From positions 1-64,000 of the forward strand of contig JAHHGR010000009.1 in the NCBI GenBank assembly GCA_019359725.1: a stretch of DNA of 64,000 bases, read 5' to 3'. The stretch is from Aphanocapsa lilacina HA4352-LM1 (GTDB taxonomy: Bacteria > Cyanobacteriota > Cyanobacteriia > Gloeobacterales > Gloeobacteraceae). Position numbers and translations under genes: made by a program. The notes below the pieces were generated by a model. It searched no databases. It had not been told where the DNA came from and worked only from the letters and a program-made list of their open reading frames with translations. Of the stretch, positions 2,843-50,293 are shown piece after piece. Position 1 is the first letter of the stretch. Each line of letters starts with the position of its first letter.

Positions 2843-3772
2843 ATGGCTCAGCGTCCCATCATTCTCGGCATCGTCGGCGACAGCGCGGCGGGCAAGACCA
2901 CCCTGACCCGCGGGATCGCCCAGATCCTCGGCCCCGAGAACGTCACGATCATCTGCACCGACGACTACCATCGCTACGACCGCAAGCAGCGCGCCGAACT
3001 GGGGATCACCGCCCTGCACCCCGACTGCAACCACCTCGACATCATCCAGCAGCACCTCGCTTTACTGCGCACCGGCCAGCCGATCTTAAAGCCCATTTAC
3101 AACCACAAAACCGGCACCTTCGATCCGCCCGAGTACATCAAGCCGCGCAATTTTGTGGTGGTCGAGGGGCTATTGGGTTTCTCGACGCGGGGGATGCGCG
3201 ATTGCTACGACGTCAAAGCCTACCTCGCTCCCCCGGAGTCGCTGCGTACCCGCTGGAAAATCAGGCGCGACACCGCCAAGCGCGGGTACTCCGAGGAGCA
3301 GGTGCTCAACGAAATGGCCAAGCGCGAACCCGACTCGGAGCAGTTCATCCGGCCCCAGCGCAGCACAGCGGACCTGGTGGTGAGCTTCTACCCGGGCCAG
3401 AACGGCCCCGATACCCAGCTCAACGTGCGGCTGGTGCTCAGACCGACCATTCCCCACCCGGACTTCGTGGATGTCATCGAGCGCAGCGGTGCCCACACCC
3501 GTTCGGCGGTGCGCATCGAACTCGATCGCGACATGGGTAAACCCGTCGATGTGCTCGAAGTGGACGGCCACGCCACCGACGAGCAGGTCAAAGAACTGCA
3601 GGAAGTGCTCTGCGAGGAGATGGCCAACGGCTCGCAGCTGTGCAACATCCCGGCCGATCTGGGCAAGGTGACCGGCACCACCGGCGAGACGCTCCAGAGC
3701 CATCCACTCGCCATCTCGCAGTTGCTGATTACCTACCACATGCTCAAAGCCTCGCGGGGCGTCTACGTTTAG
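2843..3772 (+). CDS. Phosphoribulokinase/uridine kinase family protein (divergent Prk)
   Basis: GIVGDSAAGKTT P-loop, TDDYHRYDRKQR, KPIYNHKTGTFDPPE. Confidence 0.85.
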   Translation: MAQRPIILGIVGDSAAGKTTLTRGIAQILGPENVTIICTDDYHRYDRKQRAELGITALHPDCNHLDIIQQHLALLRTGQPILKPIYNHKTGTFDPPEYIKPRNFVVVEGLLGFSTRGMRDCYDVKAYLAPPESLRTRWKIRRDTAKRGYSEEQVLNEMAKREPDSEQFIRPQRSTADLVVSFYPGQNGPDTQLNVRLVLRPTIPHPDFVDVIERSGAHTRSAVRIELDRDMGKPVDVLEVDGHATDEQVKELQEVLCEEMANGSQLCNIPADLGKVTGTTGETLQSHPLAISQLLITYHMLKASRGVYV

Positions 3773-3878
3773 CCACCCGCGACCGGCCCGTGTACAGATT
3801 GATAAACGGCCCGGTGAACCGTTGCGCCCGGTGCGTTAGCCTTGTCTGTGGCCAAAACGGACAGGCAAGGAGCAGCGC

Positions 3879-4988
3879 ATGCAGGTAAAAGCGGCCGTGG
3901 CTATGGAAGCCGGCAAGCCTTTGCGGATAGAAAGCGTCGAACTGGAAGGCCCCAAAGCCGGTGAAGTCCTCGTCGAAATCAAGGCGACCGGCATCTGCCA
4001 CACCGACGCCTTCACACTCTCAGGCGCGGATCCGGAGGGGCTCTTTCCGGCGATCCTGGGCCACGAGGGGGCCGGGGTGGTGGTGGAAGTCGGACCCGGG
4101 GTGACGAGTGTCAAACCGGGCGAGCACGTCATTCCGCTGTATACCCCCGAGTGCCGGCAGTGCGAGTACTGTCTGAGCCGCAAGACCAACCTCTGCCAGG
4201 CCATCCGCACCACCCAGGGCCGGGGGGTGATGCCCGACGGCACCAGCCGCTTCTCGCTCGGTGGTGAGCCGCTCTACCACTACATGGGCACCTCGACCTT
4301 TGCGCACTTCACGGTGCTGCCGGAAATTGCAGTAGCAAAGATCCGCAAGGATGCCCCCTTCGACAAAGTCTGCTACATCGGCTGCGGGGTGACCACCGGC
4401 GTCGGTGCCGTCATTCACACCGCCAAAGTCGAGCCGGGGGCGAACGTGGTGGTCTTCGGCCTGGGCGGCATCGGCCTCAACGTCATCCAGGGCTGCCGGA
4501 TGGTGGGAGCCGATAAGATCATAGGAGTTGATACTAATCCAGCTAAAAAAGTATTGGCTGAGAAATTCGGCATGACCCACTTCGTCAATCCCAAAGAAGT
4601 CGAAGGCGACCTGGTGCCCTACCTGGTGGAACTGACCAAAGGCGGAGCCGATTACAGTTTTGAATGCGTCGGCAACGTCAACGTGATGCGCCAGGCCCTT
4701 GAGTGCTGCCACAAAGGCTGGGGGGTGAGCGTGATTATCGGCGTGGCGGGAGCCGGTCAGGAGATCCGCACCCGGCCGTTCCAGCTGGTGACCGGCAGAG
4801 TCTGGAAGGGCTCCGCCTTTGGGGGAGCGCGCGGGCGCACCGACGTGCCTAAGATTGTCGACTGGTACATGGAAGGCAAGATCAACATCGACGATCTGAT
4901 CACCCATGTCCTGCCGCTCAGTGAGATCAACCAGGCGTTCGACCTGATGCACGCAGGCAAATCCATCCGCACCGTGGTGACTTTTTAA
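3879..4988 (+). CDS. frmA: S-(hydroxymethyl)glutathione dehydrogenase / class III alcohol dehydrogenase
   Basis: [27 protein letters not shown] zinc motif, [12 protein letters not shown] nucleotide-binding motif. Confidence 0.93.
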
Positions 4989-4989
4989 G

Positions 4990-5838
4990 ATGCGCGACGC
5001 ACCCGAACTGCTGTCTTCCCACCGCTCTTTCGGCGGGACGGTAGGCTTCTACCGGCACCACTCCGAAACGTGCGCCGCTCCGATGCGCTTTTCGGTGTTC
5101 ACCCCACCCCAGGCAGCGGCCGGTCCGGTGCCAGTGCTGTACTTTCTGGCGGGCCTCACCTGCACCGAGGAAAATTTCATGGTCAAAGCCGGGGCACAGC
5201 GCGGTGCTGCACAGCACGGGCTAATGCTCGTCGCCCCCGACACCAGCCCCCGCAAAACAGGGATCCCGGGTGAGGACGACGAATGGGACTTCGGCAGCGG
5301 GGCGGGCTTCTACGTCGATGCCACCGAGGCGCCCTGGAGCCGCCACTACCGCACGTACAGCTACGTGGTCGGGGAGTTGCCCTTGGTCGTTGCCGCCCAC
5401 TTTCCGGCGGATCTTGAGCGCACCGGTATTAGCGGCCACTCGATGGGGGGCCACGGCGCCCTGGTGTGTGCCTTTAAAAACCCGACGCGCTACCGCTCGG
5501 TCTCCGCCTTTGCTCCCATTGCCGCCCCGACACACGCGCCCTGGGGCCAAAAAGCCTTCTCGCGCTATCTCGGCGCGGACGAAAAGATCTGGAGAAGCTA
5601 TGACGCGAGCGCATTGGTGGCCATGGGCACCATCGCATCTACGATCCTCATCGATCAGGGCACAGCCGACCCGTACCTGGAGGAGCAGCTGCGCATCGAC
5701 ACCTTCGAGCAGGCCTGCGCCGCTGCTGGTCAGTCGCTGCTGTTGCGCCGCCAGGAAGGCTACGACCACAGCTACTACTTCATCGCCAGCTTCATCGACG
5801 ATCACCTGCGCCACCACGCCGAGGTGCTGATCAGATAA
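4990..5838 (+). CDS. frmB: S-formylglutathione hydrolase
   Basis: Esterase with GHSMGGHGAL nucleophile elbow, directly downstream of frmA. Confidence 0.93.
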   Translation: MRDAPELLSSHRSFGGTVGFYRHHSETCAAPMRFSVFTPPQAAAGPVPVLYFLAGLTCTEENFMVKAGAQRGAAQHGLMLVAPDTSPRKTGIPGEDDEWDFGSGAGFYVDATEAPWSRHYRTYSYVVGELPLVVAAHFPADLERTGISGHSMGGHGALVCAFKNPTRYRSVSAFAPIAAPTHAPWGQKAFSRYLGADEKIWRSYDASALVAMGTIASTILIDQGTADPYLEEQLRIDTFEQACAAAGQSLLLRRQEGYDHSYYFIASFIDDHLRHHAEVLIR

Positions 5839-5866
5839 CAAAAACAGGCCGCCTGGAGACGGCCTG
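5837..5866 (-). terminator. Rho-independent terminator of the 5'-nucleotidase gene
   Basis: On - strand CAGGCCG-N8-CGGCCTG stem followed by TTTTTG. Confidence 0.7.
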
Positions 5867-5895
5867 CAATCTCACTAAGTTGTGGGCTGCCCGCT

Positions 5896-7704
5896 CTAGT
5901 TGAGGCGGGTGATCCGGCCGCTGCCGCCTTCGGGGTACTGGCTGCTGGTCACTACACCGCTCAGGTTGGTGGTGATGTAGCTCAGTAGCGCCTGTTGGTA
6001 GGAGACGGCCAGGTTGGTGAAGGGAGCGCCGTTGAAGGGATACTGATCGCCGTTTCTGGCCAGAAAGTCGATCGTGGCGATGTTGACGGCCGGGGCGCCC
6101 GCCACTACCTGGCCGTTCTGGACGAGCACCGTGCCGCTCGCCAGCACCACTTCTTTGACCCGGGTGCCGGGGGTGGTGATCTGGCCGGTCGTTTCGTCGA
6201 TCACCTGGGCGGTGCCGGTGGCATCCCAGGTGTAGCGGAAGCCCGCGATCTGCGCGAAGCGCCCGTCGATCTCTGCGACGCGCGAGACGGCGTTTTCGAG
6301 GATTGTTTTGAACTGGCTTGCCGAAATCTGCGGCACGATGCACACAAAGTTCGAAAAAGGCAGGATGTCGAAGGTCTTCAATTCGGTGATGTTGCCGGGG
6401 GGGATCACCTCGTCGTCGCGCATGCCGCCGCCGTTTTGCAGCGCGACATCCGCCGTCGGGGCACCAAAACTGGCCGCGAGCTGATTGGCCTGCCACAACA
6501 GCGCATCGCCCACCAGGTTGCCTTCGTTGGTTTCGATCGTGCGCACGTTGGTGCGTAGGCCATCGAGGGCCACTTCGGTCCGTCCGATAATGTTGGCGGC
6601 CAGGTCGTCCACCGCCGCCTGTACCGGTTTGGTCACCAGTTCCTGCACCAGCGGGTCGGGTACCACACCGTCAGGGAAGCTGCGGCTTTTGGCGAGGACG
6701 CGCACCGGGCCGCTCCGGTCGGCATCGAGGCTGACGACGTTGCCCGCCGCATCGAACCAGGCGACCAGTTTGCCTACGTAGCGGTAGCTGCCGGTGGTAG
6801 TGACAATCGGTACCGACTTGCCCTCTTTGTCGGCGGCAGTGAGCGGATAGGAGCCGGCCACCAGTTCTGCGTCGCCCGGCAACAGCGGCGTGTCGGGATT
6901 GGCCAGGAGCTCGTCGCCGCCCCCGGCGATGGCGATATCGATGCCCTTAAGCTGCGGAATCAGGGCGAGATCTTCCTCGACGCTCTGCAGGTGGCTGGTG
7001 AAGATGATCTTGTTGATGCCTTGGGCCAGCAGCGCATCGATTTCCGTCTGCACCGTACCCACCACATCCGGATCGATCTTTACCTCGCGGGGGCTGGAGA
7101 TCGAGCCTAGAAAGGGCGTCGTGGCCCCCACAATCCCAAAGCGTTGCCCACAGACACTCACGACGCTGCTTTTGGAGATGCGCCCGCGCTTGACTAGAGC
7201 GTTGAGCTTCGGCTCGGCGCTAAAGTCAAGATTCGCCGTCACAAAGGCGGGCGGATTTTTGAAGCCGCGGATGAAATCCGCCAGCGTATCCGGCCCGAAG
7301 TCAAATTCGTGGTTGCCGATGGCGCTGGCGTCGTAGCGCAGCAGATCCAGAGCAAGGGTGTCGTAGAACGGAATGCCCTTTTCGAGGCTGGCATTAAACT
7401 GCGGTCCAGCCAGAAAGTTGTCGCCGGAGGAAATCAGCAACACCCCTTTGGCCGGGCAGGCGGAACCTGCACGGCGCAATTTGCGCACCACCCGCGCGAA
7501 GCGGGCGACGCCGCCCACCTCGACGGTCTCGCCGCCTTCTTCGATTTCCACCGGCGAGGATAAAAGCGCTGATTCGCCGTCGTTGTTGTGCAGAAGCGTC
7601 AATTCAAAAGTATCGGCCGCGCGCGCGGCGGGGAGCGGCGCAGCGGCACCGAGCGCCACGGCCGCAAGCAGACCCACGCAAATTAAGCGATAAACTCTCA
7701 CCAC
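5896..7704 (-). CDS. Secreted 5'-nucleotidase / metallophosphatase
   Basis: Signal peptide; LLHNNDGESA, GDNFLAGP, AIGNHEFDFGPD motifs; C-terminal nucleotidase domain. Confidence 0.9.
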   Translation of the reverse strand: MVRVYRLICVGLLAAVALGAAAPLPAARAADTFELTLLHNNDGESALLSSPVEIEEGGETVEVGGVARFARVVRKLRRAGSACPAKGVLLISSGDNFLAGPQFNASLEKGIPFYDTLALDLLRYDASAIGNHEFDFGPDTLADFIRGFKNPPAFVTANLDFSAEPKLNALVKRGRISKSSVVSVCGQRFGIVGATTPFLGSISSPREVKIDPDVVGTVQTEIDALLAQGINKIIFTSHLQSVEEDLALIPQLKGIDIAIAGGGDELLANPDTPLLPGDAELVAGSYPLTAADKEGKSVPIVTTTGSYRYVGKLVAWFDAAGNVVSLDADRSGPVRVLAKSRSFPDGVVPDPLVQELVTKPVQAAVDDLAANIIGRTEVALDGLRTNVRTIETNEGNLVGDALLWQANQLAASFGAPTADVALQNGGGMRDDEVIPPGNITELKTFDILPFSNFVCIVPQISASQFKTILENAVSRVAEIDGRFAQIAGFRYTWDATGTAQVIDETTGQITTPGTRVKEVVLASGTVLVQNGQVVAGAPAVNIATIDFLARNGDQYPFNGAPFTNLAVSYQQALLSYITTNLSGVVTSSQYPEGGSGRITRLN

Positions 7705-7899
7705 ATTTTCCTCGCGTCAAAAGTGCCGGAAGCCGTGCAGCTGGAAGCCTTCGCCCACGGCGCCCCCAGGGTAAGTGAACCAGAACAATATGAAAATTGG
7801 ACCAACGCCAGGTTAAGGAATCCATCGTCGGCCACCGAATCGAAAAGTGCCGCAAACTTTTGATACATTAGGAGACAATCCTGAAGCCCGGCACCCTCC

Positions 7900-8094
7900 A
7901 TGCCCATCAAAGCCTACGCCCTGCTCGGCATCTCCTGTGTAACGGCGATCGCCGCCGTCGGCTCGGTGTTCGAACTGGCCTCCGGCGTGCCGCGCTTTGG
8001 CACGGCGACTACGGCGATCATCCTCACACTGAGCGGGATTGCTACGCCGATTATCTTCTGGCTGGCCATCAAAGAGGGCCGCGCTACGCTTTGA
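7900..8094 (+). CDS. Small two-TM hypothetical protein
   Basis: 64-aa ORF with two hydrophobic segments. Confidence 0.5.
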   Translation: MPIKAYALLGISCVTAIAAVGSVFELASGVPRFGTATTAIILTLSGIATPIIFWLAIKEGRATL

Positions 8095-8127
8095 GAGCAA
8101 TTCTCAGCTGTCGGGATGGAAACCGTT

Positions 8128-8331
8128 CTAGCTTTGGCGATCCCGTGCGGTGCGCAGCCGGTCGATGATGGATTGGATTTGATTTTTGTCGCGGCAATGA
8201 ACATGGCAACTTCTGCCGGCCGCGTCGCGGTAAAAAATCGCGTACTCGACTCCTTCGCGGTCGTAGCGCCGCGACAGGCCAAAGCCGGGATTGTCAAATT
8301 CGATCTGCTCGAGGCTACGTAGTTCGTCCAT
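8128..8331 (-). CDS. Small hypothetical protein
   Basis: 67-aa ORF MDELRSLEQIEFDNPGFGLSRRYDREGVEYAIFYRDAAG..., globular composition. Confidence 0.45.
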   Translation of the reverse strand: MDELRSLEQIEFDNPGFGLSRRYDREGVEYAIFYRDAAGRSCHVHCRDKNQIQSIIDRLRTARDRQS

Positions 8332-8386
8332 GGCTATGCGGATCGGTAAGACAAACCTTTAAGTAAAGATAGCCGTTATCACCGCT

Positions 8387-8428
8387 GTTAATCTTGCGTT
8401 AATCCTATACGCGCTTCAGCCTTAATCT
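8387..8428 (+). promoter_or_regulatory. Pho-box-like tandem repeats upstream of PhoX-like gene
   Basis: GTTAATCT-TGC-GTTAATCC (8-3-8) plus CTTAATCT at 8421. Confidence 0.5.
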
Positions 8429-8613
8429 TGCCGCTTTAGAGTAGCGCTGCATCTTTTGTTACCAAATCGGCGGCAGTGTGCTTTCGATTTTGCCTGCAAG
8501 GCTGCGCAGCTGCTTTGCGGGCTTTGATCTGGCGACCGCCCGGCCGCTGCCTTTGTTCGCCGATTCTTGCCTCTTCTGTCTAGCTACACCGTTTGTACTT
8601 CTTGAGGATGACA

Positions 8614-11130
8614 ATGTCCGAATATTCCCGCAGAGAACTGCTGAAGTTTCTGGGCGTCACCGGTGGTGCGGCCCTGCTGGGCTCGATGCTCCCCGGCCAG
8701 GCGATTGCCCGCCCCGGCTCCTTTTTGGGGAGCGGCCCGCTCACCCCGGTGCGCCTGCCGCACGCGCTGCCGATTTACGCCACGCAAAAAAGCTATCTGC
8801 CCGCCGCCGGCAAAACCGCCTACTACGGCCAGCCTTTGACCAGCTACACGGTGCTCGACGACCTGGTGGTCGCCCCGGAATTTGAGCGCTACGTCATTAT
8901 CGGCTGGGGCGACCGGGTCTTCCCCAACAGCGCCGATTACTTTGGCTTCAACTGTGATTTCACCGCTTTCCGGCCCATTGGCCCAGGCAACACCAGCGAA
9001 GGTTACCTCACAGTCAACCACGAGTACGCCAACTTCCCGATGGCCCTCGGCGTGCCGGAGACCCCCGAGGCCCTGCTCAATTCCAACCCCCGGGTCTCAA
9101 CTTCTTACCCGCAAGTGATCACTGGGACGCCCGCCGCCCAGGGTGTCTCGCTCGACGACGCTTCGATTCCGCAGATCACGCGCTGGGGTGAGCAGCTGTA
9201 CAACCACGGGCTCTCGGTTGTGCGCATCAAAAAAGCCGGCAACGGCCGCTTTGCTCCGGTGGCGGATACCAAGAACCGCCGCTACCACCTGCTGTCGGGC
9301 CTAGCCCTCAACGCCGGCCGCAGCGATCTGCGTGCCGACAGCACCCCCTACAGCGCCGTCACCTCCTGGAAGACCGGCGATATCGGCCAGGACGGCGACG
9401 ATCAATATCTCATCGGCACCGGCCCGGCGGCCACCCAGGTCTTTAACCTGAGCACCGACGGCCTGGGGGCGAAGATCATCGGCACCGGCCACAACTGCTC
9501 CGGCGGCGTCACCCCCTGGGGGACCGTCCTCTCGGCGGAGGAAAACTTCCAGGCCGGCGTGGGTGCCTTCTTCGTGGGCGTCAACGAAGCGGTCCAACCG
9601 GACGGCACCCAGCTTGGGTATCTGGTGGGCGATCCGGCCACGTACACCGACTTGCTTACCGGCCAGGAGTACTTGAACTACACCACCGGCACCCTGTTTG
9701 GGCTGGTGGGCGAGAAGTACGGCTGGATGGTCGAACTCGACCCGGCCGACCCGAGCTTCCGGGCGCGCAAGCACACCTGGCTGGGCCGATTCCGCCACGA
9801 AAACATCGCCTTCCGCGCCGAGGTGGGCAAGAAACTCGTCGCCTACATGGGCGACGATCGCCGCGGCGGCAATACCTGGAAGTACGTGAGCAAAGGCCGC
9901 ATCGCGGATCTAGCCGACCGCGACGCCAACAGCCAGCTCCTCGAAGAGGGCACGCTCTACGTGGCGCGCTTCAACCCGAACGGCACCGGCCGCTGGATCC
10001 CGCTGGTATTGGCCGCGCCAGTGAACCCGATTGCCCCCACGGTGCTGGGCGAGGGCGAAGCGGCCGGTAAAGGGATCACCCCGGCGGAAGTCGCCTCGAA
10101 GTTGCGTCTACCGAGCCGCGCCGGCATCGCCGGGGGCACGGTGGACGGCGGCTTCTACGATGTCACCCCGGCCACCGAAGCCGCGGACCTCGAAAGCTAC
10201 ATCACCAAGGGCGGCACCGTCGCCCGCGCCCGCCTGAAGGACTACTACACCAGCCAGGGCGCGGTGCTGTGCGACGCCTACGCGGCGGCCAACCTGGCGG
10301 GTGCTACCCCCACCGCCCGCCCCGAGGACATCGAGATCAGCCCCCGCAACCCCCGCGAGGTGTTTGTCGCCTACACCGACGGTGCCGCCGGCTCCGACGG
10401 CTACCCCGATTCGCGCATCTTCGTCATCGGCAAGTACACCTCCGACATCAACGACACCCAGGGCTTCGGCGGTCTGTACAAGATCATCGAAAATAGCGCC
10501 GACAGCACCGGCGTCACCTTCCGCTGGGAAGTCTTCAAGCAGTCGGGCGAGGCCGGTGCTGAGGGCGGTGCGGGCTTCGCGGCCCTCGACAACCTCGCCT
10601 TCGATCAAGACGGCAACGTCTGGGGTGTGACCGACATGTCCACCAGCAACCACAATGGTCTGGGGCTGAGCTATGCCACCGGCGCCACCGGCCAGCCGCT
10701 GCAACCCAGCTTCAATACCATCGACCACACCGGCACCTCCAGTGCCCTGACCGGCGTGTTCGGCTGCAACTGGATCTTCTACATCCCACTGAGTGGCCCC
10801 GACGCCGGCAAGCTCGTGCCCTTCGGCTACGGCCCGCCCCGCTGCGAAGTGACCGGCCCCACCTTCGTGGGCGACACATTCATCGCCGCAGTCCAGCACC
10901 CCGGCGAAGATTCGCCCATCAACGGCGATCCCAATGCTGGCGGTGCCGAAGCCTCCCTGGTCACCCGCGACATCGAAATTCTCGATCTCAAAGGCGGCCT
11001 TTTCAACCAGACGCGCACCATCCCGCGCGGCAGCAGCTTCCCGAGCAATGTGCCCACGGCCGACGGCGGCAGCGGCCTCCAGTTCGGACCGCCCCGCCCC
11101 TCGGTGGTAGGCATCCGCAGAAAGCCGTAG
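8614..11130 (+). CDS. phoX: PhoX/DUF839-family alkaline phosphatase, Tat-exported
   Basis: SRRELLKFLGVTGGAALLG Tat-type signal; CSGGVTPWGTVLSAEENF; WKYVSKG; GAxxNCNW-like C-terminal region. Confidence 0.85.
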   Translation: MSEYSRRELLKFLGVTGGAALLGSMLPGQAIARPGSFLGSGPLTPVRLPHALPIYATQKSYLPAAGKTAYYGQPLTSYTVLDDLVVAPEFERYVIIGWGDRVFPNSADYFGFNCDFTAFRPIGPGNTSEGYLTVNHEYANFPMALGVPETPEALLNSNPRVSTSYPQVITGTPAAQGVSLDDASIPQITRWGEQLYNHGLSVVRIKKAGNGRFAPVADTKNRRYHLLSGLALNAGRSDLRADSTPYSAVTSWKTGDIGQDGDDQYLIGTGPAATQVFNLSTDGLGAKIIGTGHNCSGGVTPWGTVLSAEENFQAGVGAFFVGVNEAVQPDGTQLGYLVGDPATYTDLLTGQEYLNYTTGTLFGLVGEKYGWMVELDPADPSFRARKHTWLGRFRHENIAFRAEVGKKLVAYMGDDRRGGNTWKYVSKGRIADLADRDANSQLLEEGTLYVARFNPNGTGRWIPLVLAAPVNPIAPTVLGEGEAAGKGITPAEVASKLRLPSRAGIAGGTVDGGFYDVTPATEAADLESYITKGGTVARARLKDYYTSQGAVLCDAYAAANLAGATPTARPEDIEISPRNPREVFVAYTDGAAGSDGYPDSRIFVIGKYTSDINDTQGFGGLYKIIENSADSTGVTFRWEVFKQSGEAGAEGGAGFAALDNLAFDQDGNVWGVTDMSTSNHNGLGLSYATGATGQPLQPSFNTIDHTGTSSALTGVFGCNWIFYIPLSGPDAGKLVPFGYGPPRCEVTGPTFVGDTFIAAVQHPGEDSPINGDPNAGGAEASLVTRDIEILDLKGGLFNQTRTIPRGSSFPSNVPTADGGSGLQFGPPRPSVVGIRRKP

Positions 11131-27478: not shown

Positions 27479-28039
27479 TTACGCCCGAGTGTGCCGCAGG
27501 TCGAGGCGGTTGATGGCCAGCGCGTAGGGGCCGCCCGCGGCCTCGACGGCGAACACCAGCCGCACCACCGGCACCTGTAAACAGTGAAAGCCGACGAAAA
27601 TGGCCGAGCCGTCACAGGCGGTAGTGCTCAGTCCCGCGCGGCGCACCGAGGCCACTGGGCGGTCCTGGTCGTCGAAAGCTTCGAGCACCCCGGTAAAGGC
27701 GCCCGGATAGTCCGGCTGGATCTGCGCCCCAGCCCCCCAGACGGGTTCTGAGAGCACCAGGACAATCGGGCCGGGGTTTTGCTCCAGACCCGTGAAGAGC
27801 ACCATCTCACCCAGGACGAAGTTGGTGTGGTTGGCGGGGCAGCTTTCGAGCACCAGAGGCGGGGCTTTGTGCCCCGCCACCTGGACCTGCACTGCCATTC
27901 CACCGATCGAGCGCGCGACGAAGCTTCTTTCCAGGCGCGTATAGGGGGCGCCCAGGCCGGCCCAGTCGATGCCGTCGTCGGCCCCCAGTGCGGCGCGCTC
28001 CTCGATGGCGGTGGCCGTAGTCAGGACGGGTGCGCTCAT
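27479..28039 (-). CDS. Hypothetical protein co-operonic with Rieske oxygenase
   Basis: ORF from MSAPVLTT; start overlaps stop of 28036-29055. Confidence 0.65.
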   Translation of the reverse strand: MSAPVLTTATAIEERAALGADDGIDWAGLGAPYTRLERSFVARSIGGMAVQVQVAGHKAPPLVLESCPANHTNFVLGEMVLFTGLEQNPGPIVLVLSEPVWGAGAQIQPDYPGAFTGVLEAFDDQDRPVASVRRAGLSTTACDGSAIFVGFHCLQVPVVRLVFAVEAAGGPYALAINRLDLRHTRA

Positions 28040-29055
28040 GGCGAAGCTCCTTCGGTGATGCGTGGGTTCTGGGTTGGGGAAGCCCACTCCAGCCGCCCGC
28101 ACAGCCTGCGCAGGCGGCGGTAGGCTACCTCCAGGCCGTCGGAGGGGGCGTGGACCTCTGCGTTCAACTGCTCAGGCACCGGGCCGGGCGGTTGCAGGCG
28201 CACGACACTGTCGTCCTGGCGGAAGGTGCGCACGACGTCGCGGTGCATAAACGGGTCCGCCCAGGCGTGGGTGACGAAGTTGCGCAGGTGCAGCCAGCAG
28301 GTGTGGGTGGTGCGGTCGTCCACCGGCACATGGACCAAAAACAGAATGAACTGGATGCGGCCGAAGCGGTGGTGGACTTGGGTGACGTTGGGCAGGTGGA
28401 AGGTGGAGGTGATGCTGCCGTCGGGGGGCGTCTTGCCGAGCACCAACTTCAAGAAGTAGGCCGGTTTGGTTTTGAACTGGATGGAGGCACTGCCGCGCCA
28501 GCGCTCCGACTCGATATGGTAGGTCTGGATGCGGGGCGCCTCTTTGCGGCCGAAGGCGGCGGCGTGCACAAAAGGGGCGTGGGACATATCCACGGTGTTG
28601 GCGATGACGCGCGTGTAGTGCCCACTCCAGGTGAATTCGCCGCGCACCGCCCGCCAGCCGGGGTCCGCGTACTCCGGCAGCGGCGGCAGTTCCGGGCGCT
28701 GGGCCGCGGGCAGCTCTCCCAAAAACACCCACACCAGGCCATGGCGCTCCTGCACCGGGAATGTCTCCACTTTGGCAAGGCGCGAGATGGCCACCCCCGG
28801 TTGGTTGGCCGGAATTTCCGTGCACCCGCCGTCGGGCGCGTAGCGCCAGCCGTGGTACGGACAGCGCAGGCAATTGCCCTCCACCCAGCCGCCGGAAAGG
28901 GCGGTATCCCGGTGGGCACAGCGGTCCTCCAGGGCGACGACCCGCCCCCCGCTCGTGCGGTACAGGACCAGTGGGCGGCCCATCACCACCACCTGCCGGG
29001 GTATCGATGTGATGGCCGGGCTGTGGGCCAGGCCATACCAGAAGTTGTTCAACAC
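28036..29055 (-). CDS. Rieske non-heme iron oxygenase (PaO/chlorophyllide-oxygenase-like family)
   Basis: CAHRDTALSGGWVEGNCLRCPYHGW Rieske motif; NTVDMSHAPFVHA mononuclear iron site; probable GTG start. Confidence 0.88.
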   Translation of the reverse strand: MLNNFWYGLAHSPAITSIPRQVVVMGRPLVLYRTSGGRVVALEDRCAHRDTALSGGWVEGNCLRCPYHGWRYAPDGGCTEIPANQPGVAISRLAKVETFPVQERHGLVWVFLGELPAAQRPELPPLPEYADPGWRAVRGEFTWSGHYTRVIANTVDMSHAPFVHAAAFGRKEAPRIQTYHIESERWRGSASIQFKTKPAYFLKLVLGKTPPDGSITSTFHLPNVTQVHHRFGRIQFILFLVHVPVDDRTTHTCWLHLRNFVTHAWADPFMHRDVVRTFRQDDSVVRLQPPGPVPEQLNAEVHAPSDGLEVAYRRLRRLCGRLEWASPTQNPRITEGASP

Positions 29056-29343
29056 GGCGCAACTCCCCTTCAAAGTAAGACAAAAGCCGCAGCGTTCGCA
29101 GCACAATGCTCCGCGCACCGCAGTGCGACATATCGAACCGTCGTATACACCAAAACCCCGGCGGAGCAAGACTTTCCCCGCAATCACCCCCGAAGCCGAA
29201 ACCCGATTGCCAACTCCAAAAAGCCGGTTTACAGGTGGAGACAGCTTATCGCATGCGAAAGAGCAGTCGATATAAATTCTCGATAAATTTTTGTGAATTG
29301 CGGCCGCGACCTACAATCGCGGTGTTGCTGGTTTGGCAGGCGG

Positions 29344-29820
29344 GTGGTGGAAATTTTTGAGCAGCAGATTCGCATCGCAGCCTCACTGGGTGCCGCTGAG
29401 CGCTGCTTGAGCGAGCCCGGCTTGATGCGCCGCTGGCTCAATCCCCTGCTTGAATGCCGCAGCGTCGGGGAGTGGTCGACGGCGGTGGGCAGCCGCTTTC
29501 GCTTTTATCTGCGCCTGCCGCCGGTGCATCCCCATCTGGAGTGCGAAGTGGTCGAGCGCGCCCTCGGGTTGGTGCAGTGGCAATTTACGGGATTTTTTGA
29601 AGGCACCGACCGTTGGGAAGTCACGGGGTCCGACGGCGATCTGCTCCTGGTCAACCGCTTTTGTTTCGACATTCCCAACCCGTTGGTGCGCTTTGGATTT
29701 GCAATTTTTGCCCAGGCGCTCACCCGTGCCGACATGCAAGCCCAGTTGCACAGGCTCAAGGCGGTGGCGGAGACCCTCGAGCCGCCGGGTGAGTTATCCT
29801 GGAAGTCACAAACTTCATAA
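29344..29820 (+). CDS. SRPBCC-like hypothetical protein
   Basis: START/SRPBCC-like pattern, probable GTG start. Confidence 0.5.
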   Translation: MVEIFEQQIRIAASLGAAERCLSEPGLMRRWLNPLLECRSVGEWSTAVGSRFRFYLRLPPVHPHLECEVVERALGLVQWQFTGFFEGTDRWEVTGSDGDLLLVNRFCFDIPNPLVRFGFAIFAQALTRADMQAQLHRLKAVAETLEPPGELSWKSQTS

Positions 29821-29826
29821 AACGCA

Positions 29827-30366
29827 ATGACCGCCAATACCGGGCTATTGAACCAGCGCTTTGCAAAAAATTTCGTACCCCTACCCGGCTTCAGCGTTCC
29901 CGAAGTCGGACAGAGCGCTCCCGATTTTGTCCTGCCGCGCGTCGGGGGCGAACCGGTGCGCCTGGCGAATTATCGGGGGCGGACGGCGGTGGTGATCGCC
30001 TTTACGCGCATTTTTACTGACAAACTTTTTTGCCCGTTGTGCTATCCGCACATCCAGGAACTCAAAAATCGTTACGGCGAAGTCCGCGAAGCCGGGGCGG
30101 AATTGTTGATGGTCTCGAGCACCGACCCGGTGCAGAGTGCCCAGGTGGTTGCGGCTCTGGCGTTGCCCTATCCGTTTTTGTTTGATCCCGACTGCGGGAT
30201 CTTCCGGATCTACGGCGCGGGTCAGGCCCTCGGCGCCCCGCTGCCGGCCCAGTACATCGTCGATGTAACCGGCAAGATCGTCTACCGCCACCTGTTCTCG
30301 TTTATCGACAGCAACGCCTCGACCGACGAGGTGCTCGCGGTGCTCAAGGCGCTGGAGCGCGCCTGA
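29827..30366 (+). CDS. Peroxiredoxin (AhpC/TSA family)
   Basis: [43 protein letters not shown]. Confidence 0.85.
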
Positions 30367-31058: not shown

Positions 31059-31295
31059 CTAGAAAGGACCGTTGGGAACGATGACGGCGACGATCAGAAA
31101 AGCGGGCAGCCCGCTAGCGCCCAGGAGACTGGCAATTCGACCTTCGTCGCGGCTTTCGAGCGCTTCACGCGTCGCTGCATCAAGGCCTGTTTCCTCTAAT
31201 ATCGTCCGACGCTGTTCAGGATCTTGCCGAAAGCGCTGCGCCAGGAAAGGATCCTGTGTAAGCCGGATAAGAAATGACTTGGCTTTGTGGTTCAT
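31059..31295 (-). CDS. Candidate split-borosin precursor peptide (leader + hydrophobic core)
   Basis: 78 aa; leader SFLIRLTQDPFLAQRFRQDPEQRRTILEETGLDAATREALESRDEGRIASLL, C-terminal GASGLPAFLIVAVIVPNGPF; 51 bp after the methyltransferase. Confidence 0.8.
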   Translation of the reverse strand: MNHKAKSFLIRLTQDPFLAQRFRQDPEQRRTILEETGLDAATREALESRDEGRIASLLGASGLPAFLIVAVIVPNGPF

Positions 31296-31346
31296 AGGTG
31301 GCTACTCACTGTTTAGCTACATCATTACATTGGAGGGACGGTTCCT

Positions 31347-32150
31347 TCAGGCTCCGGTTCCGTGAAACGTCTTAATTTTGAACTTTGCCAGCACTTGCTC
31401 GTCGATTGCCTGCGAGAAAAGCGGAGGAATGTATAACGTCGAAACGGCATTAATGCGGGCTGTAGGTAGGCCCGCTAGAGGTACGCGCTCGACGACGGGA
31501 TCACACAGGGCAAAGTGTGCCGCTTGGTAGACAACCACTTCGTGTTCGGGTGGATAGAATGCCGACAACGCCTCCACAAGCATTGGCATATAGCGCAGAT
31601 CGTAGCCGCTGCCCTGGTAATCGCCGTGACCCACACAACCGATTTGCCACAGCACCACGCCACAGGTCGGGTCAAGGCGACGGCGGCGCAAAAGAAAATC
31701 GGAAGCCTCCAGCATCTGGCACCCTGCAGTGGCGGGGTCTACCCCGAGATCCGCGAATAAACAATCGGCTGCCGAAATCCCTGCAAGCATCTCGGCTGGG
31801 TAGCCCTCTGCGCGGGCTTGGCGGATCGATTCGTGGGAGGGATAGGCAAAAATGCCAGGATGCCCGTAGAAGACTGCAGCCACCTGAAGGTCGGTCCGCA
31901 CCAGTTCAAGGATGCGCTCGACCATCTGAGTGTAAGTCTGCATCCTGGGCTTATCATTTGCGTAAAAGCGGTGCAGGTCCTCAGCAGGGAGTTTACCAGC
32001 TTCTTCGCGAAGCTCGTCGACGAACGAACGACTGAGCGGCTCGGCGATGCAGTAGGCAACAGCGCCTGCAGTCCGAATGGCGGCAATGGCCTCCTGGGAA
32101 AGGTGCCCGGCTCGAATACCTGTGCCTACAACCAAAAGCGAACCCGACAT
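31347..32150 (-). CDS. Borosin-type peptide alpha-N-methyltransferase (tetrapyrrole methylase fold)
   Basis: LLVVGTGIRAGHLSQEAI, FYANDKPRMQTYTQMVERIL, YGHPGIFAYPSHESIRQARAEGYPAEMLAGISAADCLFADLGVDPATAGCQMLEAS. Confidence 0.85.
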   Translation of the reverse strand: MSGSLLVVGTGIRAGHLSQEAIAAIRTAGAVAYCIAEPLSRSFVDELREEAGKLPAEDLHRFYANDKPRMQTYTQMVERILELVRTDLQVAAVFYGHPGIFAYPSHESIRQARAEGYPAEMLAGISAADCLFADLGVDPATAGCQMLEASDFLLRRRRLDPTCGVVLWQIGCVGHGDYQGSGYDLRYMPMLVEALSAFYPPEHEVVVYQAAHFALCDPVVERVPLAGLPTARINAVSTLYIPPLFSQAIDEQVLAKFKIKTFHGTGA

Positions 32151-32256: not shown

Positions 32257-34374
32257 TTGCTGCCCGTAGAATTCGTGGAAAAAATAACGTCACTGGTGCG
32301 CTCAGCCCTAGGCGTATCCGTTGTTCAAATTTGTCTCACCGGTTACCAGGACTTTACTGTTGATCCCTGGTTCAGAAGTCAGGCACCCCTTGGGACAACT
32401 GGCTCGCTGTGCGACGCTGACCTTGATGCCTGTTTCAGCCACTCGCCGTGGCGCTTTGTGGCGGCGGCTCCCATTTTCTCTAACAGTGCGCTGGCGGGTA
32501 ATCTCTGGATCGCCGATAGGCAGCCGCGCTCCCTCGATAGAGCCCATAGTTTGCTCCTGGAACACGCCGCCTCGCTGGTGAGCGAGCGCCTGGAGGCAGA
32601 GGAGCGTTTTGATGAAAGCCAACAGCGCAACTTGATGTACGAAAAGTATATTGATATGGCGCCAGATCAAATTGGGCTTCTAGACCCCGAACTGCGTTCG
32701 ATCATGGTCAATGCAGCCACTTCTCGCTTTTCTGGGCTGCCTAAGGAATGGGTATTGGGCAAAAATCTTTGGGAGATGGGCATACCTGAATCGATCCTTG
32801 CTCAGATGTCCGATTGGGAGCAAATGGTCCGTAAGGTGTTCGAGACGGGAGAGCCAGGCAGCACCAGTTATGCGCATACTGCGGGTGCTGAAGGCTATAT
32901 GCTTTACTGCTACAGTCTGGCGGTGCCCCAGTTCAACTGTCGAGGCGAGGTAGTGGCCGTGCTGAACATCACCTACGATCGCGCCGCCCTCGAGATGCCC
33001 TTCAAACTGGAGGACTGGGCGGGCATGGGGGAGCAGTTGATGCGCGAGGTGGCGGCCCACCGGGTTACCCAGGAGGAACTCGCCAGGTTGAATGCTGAAC
33101 TGGAGGAGCGCGTCAGGGAAAGGACCGTTCGCTACAAGTTGCTCAACCAGAAACTGCGGGCGGAAATTGGCGAGCGGCAGCGCATCGAAGTCGAGTTGCA
33201 GGCGGCCCAGGCGCGGGCGGAGGCCGCCGCCAGGGCCAAAAGCGACTTTCTTGCCGCCGCAAGCCATGAGTTGCGCACGCCGATGCATGGGATCATCAGC
33301 ATGACCGATCTGCTGCTGGAAAGCGAGCTGAGCGCTGAACAGCGGGAACTGACCGCCATCATCAGTTACTGCGGCGAGACGATGCTGAGTTTGATCAACA
33401 ACATTCTTGATTTTTCGAAAATCGAGGCGGGACGCATGGAACTCGACGTTGTGCCCTTCGAGTTGCCCCGGTTGATCGACTCGGTGGTGGCCATGTTTGC
33501 CGAGCAGCTGCGCGGCAAAGAGCTGCAATTGCAGGTGCTCATCGACTCCAGAGTACCGGGGCAACTCGAAGGCGATCCGGTGCGCTTGGCGCAGGTGCTG
33601 ACTAACCTGGTGGGCAACTCTCTGAAATTTACCTCTCGCGGCCAGATAGCTATCCGGGTGCATCCAGTGGCGGAGCAAGAAAACGAGATGCGTCTGCGCT
33701 TTGAAGTCGTCGACACCGGGATCGGCATGAGCGCCGAGACGACCAGCCGCCTGTTCCAGTCGTTTTTTCAAGCCGACACTTCCACCACCCGCAAGTACGG
33801 CGGCACGGGGCTGGGACTTGCCATCTCCAGGCAACTTGTCGAGTTGATGGGTGGGCAGATCGGCGTCGAGAGCCGCCTGGAGGAAGGTTCGACGTTCTGG
33901 TTCGTGTTGCCGCTTAAAGTTTCAGCCCCGGCCGAACCACCGCCGCCGAGCGCACCCGTGGTGGTGCGTCTGCCCCAGTACGGGCCGATTTTGATCGTCG
34001 AAGATAACACCGTCAATCAGAAGGTATTGCTGCGGCACCTGGAGCGGCTCGGCTGCGAGGCGGCGGTGGCGGAGACCGGGGCGGAGGCCCTCACGGTGCT
34101 GGCGAGCCGCTCCTTCACACTGGTGTTGATGGATTGCCAGATGCCGGTCATGGACGGCTTCCAGGCTACCGCCGAGATCCGCAGGCGCGAAGACCCGGCC
34201 CGGCGCACGCCCATCGTGGGCATCACCGCCAACGCCAGCGCCGGGGTCTACGAGCTGTGTCTGGCGGCGGGCATGGACGACTGTTTAATTAAACCGGTGC
34301 GCCGCGAGCAGTTGACCGCCGCCATCGAGCGCTGGGCGCTGCCGGTGGGCACCACTGAGCGGGCCACCGGCTGA
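32257..34374 (+). CDS. Hybrid histidine kinase (GAF/PAS-HisKA-HATPase-REC)
   Basis: [49 protein letters not shown]-terminal receiver [15 protein letters not shown]-like. Confidence 0.93.
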
Positions 34375-49600: not shown

Positions 49601-50293
49601 ATGGAAGAAGAGCAAGGGTTCTTGGAGTCCGTCGGTGGCTGGCTCGGCGATCGAGCTGAGGATGCCACCGACTGGATGGGCGATGCTGCCGAGGAGGTCG
49701 CCGACGTTGCCGGGGATGCCGTCGAGCAAGTCTCCGACTGGACCGGAGATCGCGTCGAAGGTCTGGCGCAATTGGGCGGCGATGTCTACGGCGGTACCCT
49801 GGAGGCCGGTGGCGAACTGGTGTCGGAGGCGGGCGATCTGTTCGGTTCGGAGGGCCTCGGTGCGTTCGGCGAGGATATGACGGGTGCCGGCCAATCGCTC
49901 GAAGCCGGCTTCGACCAGGTGGGCGAATGGGCCGACAACCGATACGACCGGGGTGGCGAGTTGGCCGACATGGGCCTTGACGCGGTCGGCGAGTGGACCG
50001 ATCAGCGCTACGACCAGGCCGGTGTGGCTACCAATGCGGCTCTGGAGACGGCCGGTGCGCTCGGGGACGACGCGGTGGATACGGCTGGCGAGTACACCGA
50101 CACCGATGATGACGGATACTCCTGGGACGATATTGCCGGCTGGGGGATGAAGGGAGGCTTTGCCGCCGCCGGGGCTGCTCTCGGCGGGCCGGGCGGTGCT
50201 GCCGCCGGGACCGTCGTCGGCCACTACGCTGCGTCGGTGGCCGACGAATTGATCGACGATGTCTTCTACAGCGGCGAGGAGACCACCGGCTAG
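49601..50293 (+). CDS. Acidic repeat-containing hypothetical protein with Gly/Ala-rich C-terminus
   Basis: Recurring DWxGDxxE/AGDxxE-type units; GWGMKGGFAAAGAALGGPGGAAAGTVVGHY. Confidence 0.65.
   Translation: MEEEQGFLESVGGWLGDRAEDATDWMGDAAEEVADVAGDAVEQVSDWTGDRVEGLAQLGGDVYGGTLEAGGELVSEAGDLFGSEGLGAFGEDMTGAGQSLEAGFDQVGEWADNRYDRGGELADMGLDAVGEWTDQRYDQAGVATNAALETAGALGDDAVDTAGEYTDTDDDGYSWDDIAGWGMKGGFAAAGAALGGPGGAAAGTVVGHYAASVADELIDDVFYSGEETTG

Follow-up and report, generated by a model that had tools for sequence, protein, structure and literature searches.

We found that two adjoining genes in the window, a 64,000-nucleotide stretch of contig JAHHGR010000009.1 from Aphanocapsa lilacina HA4352-LM1, very likely constitute a split (trans) borosin system. 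The core and the enzyme lie on separate proteins, which makes the system a split one, unlike fused omphalotin; at odds with the fused borosins (types I-III), the methyltransferase ended at residue 267 and the core was carried by a separate ORF. Homology of the enzyme to OphMA and SonM, its conserved Arg and Tyr residues and an adjacent, separate precursor with a borosin-binding domain (BBD) are the features of split borosins, and judged from the sequences an N-methylated peptide of this kind is very probably what the pair makes. Counted against this assignment were a histidine (H60) at the position of SonM Tyr58, a weak homology of the precursor to SonA without the rhizobial rows, Foldseek matches of the precursor model short of significance, and no adjoining protease, transporter or other tailoring gene. 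The Gloeobacter pair belongs to the known split borosin family, for which Imani et al. and Cho et al., cited in PMC11285071 and PMC11395268, set the subtype criteria (IV versus V-X). A literature search retrieved no paper pairing borosins with Gloeobacter; the surveys that define the bacterial borosins lay outside this search, and an earlier cataloguing of the pair is possible. Through split borosins, N-methylation of a peptide backbone can be encoded genetically, and such methylation raises the stability and membrane permeability of peptides. The minimal pair described here, with just two genes and a core that is purely aliphatic, comes from the earliest-branching cyanobacterial lineage and supplies an enzyme that could be tried on aliphatic sequences; the conserved Gloeobacter product is a test case for a physiological role.

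The enzyme gene (31347..32150, minus strand) encodes an alpha-N-methyltransferase of 267 aa that was placed in the borosin/TP-methylase family, as SonM/OphMA-like, by its Pfam and PDB matches, its key residues and its position in a tree. Pfam identified TP_methylase (E=8e-18), and nearly full-length PDB matches were obtained with dbOphMA (E=2e-62), OphA (~1e-58) and SonM (E=8e-50). The TP_methylase match, along with a weak match to the NCBIfam YabN model, would also suit a tetrapyrrole or corrin methylase with the small ORF as an unrelated neighbour. However, the NCBIfam precorrin models scored far under their cut-off (18 vs 163 bits), while OphMA and SonM were matched over nearly the full length with 173-214 bits and the borosin substrate-binding residues were kept; the partner gene, moreover, is co-inherited and SonA-like. 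We consider this explanation extremely improbable and return to the borosin assignment. R69, Y73 and Y95 of the enzyme correspond to OphA Arg72, Tyr76 and Tyr98 and were invariant across 8 aligned borosin methyltransferases, and OphA mutants at R72, Y76 and Y98 had lost methylation (PMC6108569). H60 stands at SonM Tyr58, whose equivalence to OphA Tyr63 follows from their distances to the conserved Arg and Tyr residues. The position of SonM Tyr58 also varies in other bacterial borosin methyltransferases, and Phe mutants at SonM Y58 and OphA Y63 kept a reduced activity in both enzymes (for OphA, PMC6108569). In a 16-row tree, the Gloeobacterales methyltransferases grouped in a single clade (99/98), with the other split enzymes on their side of the tree, and the fused enzymes, the fungal one included, clustered apart from the split ones; the finer placement is unsure because of the long rhizobial and Streptomyces branches. 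At E<=1e-25, such a methyltransferase was detected in 8 of 390 genomes of the class, and a search in phages gave no match.

The precursor gene (31059..31295, minus strand) encodes a leader and a core in 78 aa, with the full translation MNHKAKSFLIRLTQDPFLAQRFRQDPEQRRTILEETGLDAATREALESRDEGRIASLLGASGLPAFLIVAVIVPNGPF, and was assigned as a split borosin precursor from its conservation in genomes G001, G003 and G004, its dN/dS and its profile match to SonA. Homologues of identical length were present in two congeners (G001 and G003), and the differences from these at codon positions 1/2/3 were 13/5/25 and 15/6/26, with a dN/dS of ~0.15-0.24. The full-length conservation in both congeners and the bias of changes towards the third position indicate that the ORF is a real gene. 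An overlapping ORF on the opposite strand (31072-31365, plus) is cut down to 51 aa in each of the two congeners and was rejected as a gene. A terminator-like site at 31101-31115, within the precursor gene, was discarded, as it did not exceed what shuffles give.

Direct reading showed that the precursor ends in GASGLPAFLIVAVIVPNGPF, and that positions 31059-31124 on the minus strand encode its residues from L58 onwards, stop codon included. The last 20 residues contain no D, E, K, R or H; of the 349 window ORFs of at least 60 aa, only 3 have such an end, the precursor among them. The preliminary description had reported an abrupt change from a charged leader to a charge-free tail; the charge-free tail was confirmed, but the sequence quoted there dropped IASLL between ...DEGR and GASG, and the change is slightly less abrupt. 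That description had also named a transmembrane helix as one finding that would speak against a core. The hydrophobic run is AFLIVAVIV; with its 9 residues it falls short of the length of an ordinary transmembrane helix.

Residues 1-58 (31122..31295, minus strand) form the leader, which carries a motif common to SonA and the rhizobial precursors and for which helices were predicted; the N-terminal part is assigned as a BBD by its profile match to SonA. The precursor of the window searched alone against the PDB matched SonA weakly (E=0.75), and a Gloeobacterales-only profile (A3) ranked SonA first, but at E=0.09. When the profile comprised the Gloeobacter rows, the rhizobial rows and the sister-genus row, with SonA itself left out (A4), SonA chains were the top matches (E=4e-9 to 2e-8), with no other match below 0.1; all seven significant matches were SonA constructs. 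A Gloeobacter-only precursor profile matched small ORFs adjoining borosin methyltransferases, in S. meliloti at E=8e-7 and in Bradyrhizobium at E=5e-6; a region of two fused borosins was also matched, weakly. Profile A2 alone, searched in 386 genomes from the phylum at E<=1e-4, found no match outside the window genome. A single-sequence AlphaFold2 model (pLDDT 69) contained five helices across residues 3-61 and a low-confidence tail, and in Foldseek LigAB and SonA chains ranked at the top of its matches, short of significance (E>0.7). This agrees with the SonA BBD, described as a five-helix domain structurally homologous to dioxygenase-associated domains (PMC8429565), although the predicted model proves nothing alone. 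Sub-threshold matches to Nif11 models (Pfam, 17.7 bits against a cut-off of 23.8; TIGR03798, 18.4 against 32.3) might instead point to a Nif11-type leader for another RiPP class, or the small protein might be an unmodified small membrane peptide. Both scores lie under the curated cut-offs, the gene has no lanthipeptide enzyme or other modifying enzyme beside it, SonA is the only significant solved relative and the hydrophobic run is just 9 residues, so that we consider these alternatives very improbable and retain the BBD.

The methyltransferase lies directly upstream of the precursor on the same strand, and the 51-bp spacer between them (31296..31346, minus strand) is free of terminator-like sites. 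Adjacent methyltransferase and precursor genes were identified in three Gloeobacter genomes (G000, G001 and G003) and in the sister-genus genome G004, whereas neither gene was found in the congener G002 or the family member G005. In G004, the two genes lie on different contigs; the end of the one with the methyltransferase and the start of the one with the precursor are nearly identical in sequence, indicating that the two genes are adjacent, and the G004 precursor reads MEVFTQFLN...GCSAASYFFVVVVIDSQQPVEVAA. Two contig ends of one MAG (L034:1-260 and L035:5900-6087) overlap with a few mismatches, showing that the break in the assembly fell between the gene for the methyltransferase and that for the precursor; strain variation is its probable cause.

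Upstream of the pair, a hybrid histidine kinase gene (32257-34374) is divergent from the methyltransferase, and a histidine-kinase-like ORF still stands beside the methyltransferase in the sister genus. Downstream of the precursor follow rpiA and an AhpC/TSA-family gene (29827-30366), and farther on Pfam identified a gene of the polyketide-cyclase fold at 29293-29820 and one for a Rieske oxygenase at 28036-29187. In G004, rpiA is on another contig and the precursor is followed by an opposite-strand ORF of 590 aa (aspS-like, read by eye). The precursor thus stays with the methyltransferase and not with rpiA; this arrangement speaks against an operon with rpiA, which is probably a chance neighbour. 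Elsewhere in the window, a 230-aa ORF (49601-50293, plus strand) begins with acidic repeats (GDRAEDATDWMGDAAEEVADVAGDAVEQVSDWTGDRVEG) and had no Pfam match.

The predicted core LPAFLIVAVIVPNGPF (residues 63-78) occupies, together with the stop codon, 31059..31109 on the minus strand, by direct reading, and its position matches that of the SonA core. The alignment to SonA was ungapped through the core and placed L67 on SonA L63 and V69 on SonA I65, which are the two residues methylated by SonM (PMC8429565). The predicted first two methylation sites in this alignment are L67 (31095-31097) and V69 (31089-31091), both within 31089..31097 on the minus strand, and we give an even chance to their being exactly these two. 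A continuous I/V/A block between F and P had been proposed earlier as the methylated positions; the SonA register does not bear this out, and predicts every second residue from L67 and V69. By analogy with SonM/SonA, the N-terminal helical bundle of the precursor (the BBD, residues ~1-58) would dock on the methyltransferase homodimer and feed LPAFLIVAVIVPNGPF, the flexible core at the C-terminus, into the SAM-bound active site. The backbone amides of the core would then be methylated from N to C at alternate residues, probably L67, then V69, and possibly V71 and V73. Backbone methylation of the core, its sites and its order are all drawn from that system.

Within the genus, identity was 16/20 for the tail and 46-47/58 for the leader; against the sister genus, it was 7/20 and 28/58, respectively. 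The sister-genus core keeps F66, V69, V71 and I72 in a hydrophobic FFVVVVI tract but replaces P64 and P74, and the core tract was hydrophobic in all four genomes carrying the pair. A tail that varies among homologues had been expected; the tail diverges in the sister genus relative to the leader, but is not hypervariable within the genus. As read from these sequences, it is a hydrophobic core under constraint on its character. The prolines had been suggested as cleavage sites, and the replacement of P64 and P74, together with the lack of an adjoining protease gene, leaves proline-directed cleavage unsupported.

No protease, transporter or second tailoring gene was found adjoining the pair at the locus. 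A borosin-type enzyme might act on a small protein that binds via a LigA/BBD-like domain, and the tail-methylated 78-aa protein might itself be the functional product, perhaps as a small regulator or a protein that touches the membrane. For type IV split borosins, no end product was known (PMC8429565), and the absence of a protease or exporter gene beside the pair and the strong conservation of the tail within the genus, PNGPF included, would fit such a protein. Prolyl oligopeptidase was rejected as an informative candidate for the maturation protease, since the family occurs in 6/6 Gloeobacteraceae whether the pair is present or absent, and the lack of such a marker is likewise compatible with a full-length product. 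Against this, the leader is kept in the sister genus but the tail there is very different. The cores of fused borosins, that of omphalotin among them, are cleaved off and released, and RiPP pathways commonly rely on unlinked proteases. On balance, we regard a full-length working product as unlikely, and it is decidedly unlikely that an N-methylated, protease-resistant hydrophobic tail is never released and that the 78-aa protein is a house-keeping or signalling product rather than a secreted natural product.

As in OphMA/dbOphMA of the omphalotin pathway (PMC6108569), whose methyltransferase domain is the best PDB match, Arg72, Tyr76 and Tyr98 are kept and the core is hydrophobic and C-terminal. 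Unlike in OphMA, the core is on a separate protein, there is no fused clasp/core region and no prolyl oligopeptidase gene adjoins. The proposal of an omphalotin-like borosin precursor therefore held for the hydrophobic C-terminal core beside a matching N-methyltransferase, but the layout is the split one of SonM/SonA and not a fused one.

In two rhizobial plasmids, S. meliloti KH35c pSymA (L015) and Bradyrhizobium sp. 155 p155_2 (L012), a small BBD protein likewise adjoins a borosin methyltransferase, but the cores differ from that of Gloeobacter (AFGVSVNVTITLGISIP and RVIRIRNIRIRFGV, respectively). The S. meliloti locus (3608-4792), on a symbiosis plasmid, has the precursor upstream of the methyltransferase. 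The Bradyrhizobium locus (3980-8765), on a conjugative plasmid, carries a precursor with an Arg-alternating core and, unlike the Gloeobacter pair, a TauD-like dioxygenase, a prolyl oligopeptidase (the type of protease that omphalotin employs) and a second borosin methyltransferase. Two cyanobacterial genomes from separate families of the same class (L018:1237-4809 in G276 and L019:1379-4857 in G282) showed another split borosin layout, in which one strand carries, in order, a methyltransferase, two repeat-rich proteins (TPR-like, by eye), a BBD-like small protein whose tail is rich in Asp-Pro (FAITVFDPGPDPLPDPDPFPPSPPPDPKPDSE) and a protein-kinase-like gene.

The type IV split borosin SonM/SonA of Shewanella oneidensis (PMC8429565; PDB 7LTC and others) shares with the Gloeobacter pair a separate methyltransferase of ~265 aa (SonM 263, here 267), precursors of 71-78 aa with a BBD leader, a core that aligns gap-free around the methylated residues, and the key Arg and Tyr residues. 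The Gloeobacter pair differs in having His60 for SonM Tyr58 and a cyanobacterial host, and it took a profile to make the homology between the precursors significant. Unlike SonA, the Gloeobacter core has a longer aliphatic tract and ends in PNGPF.
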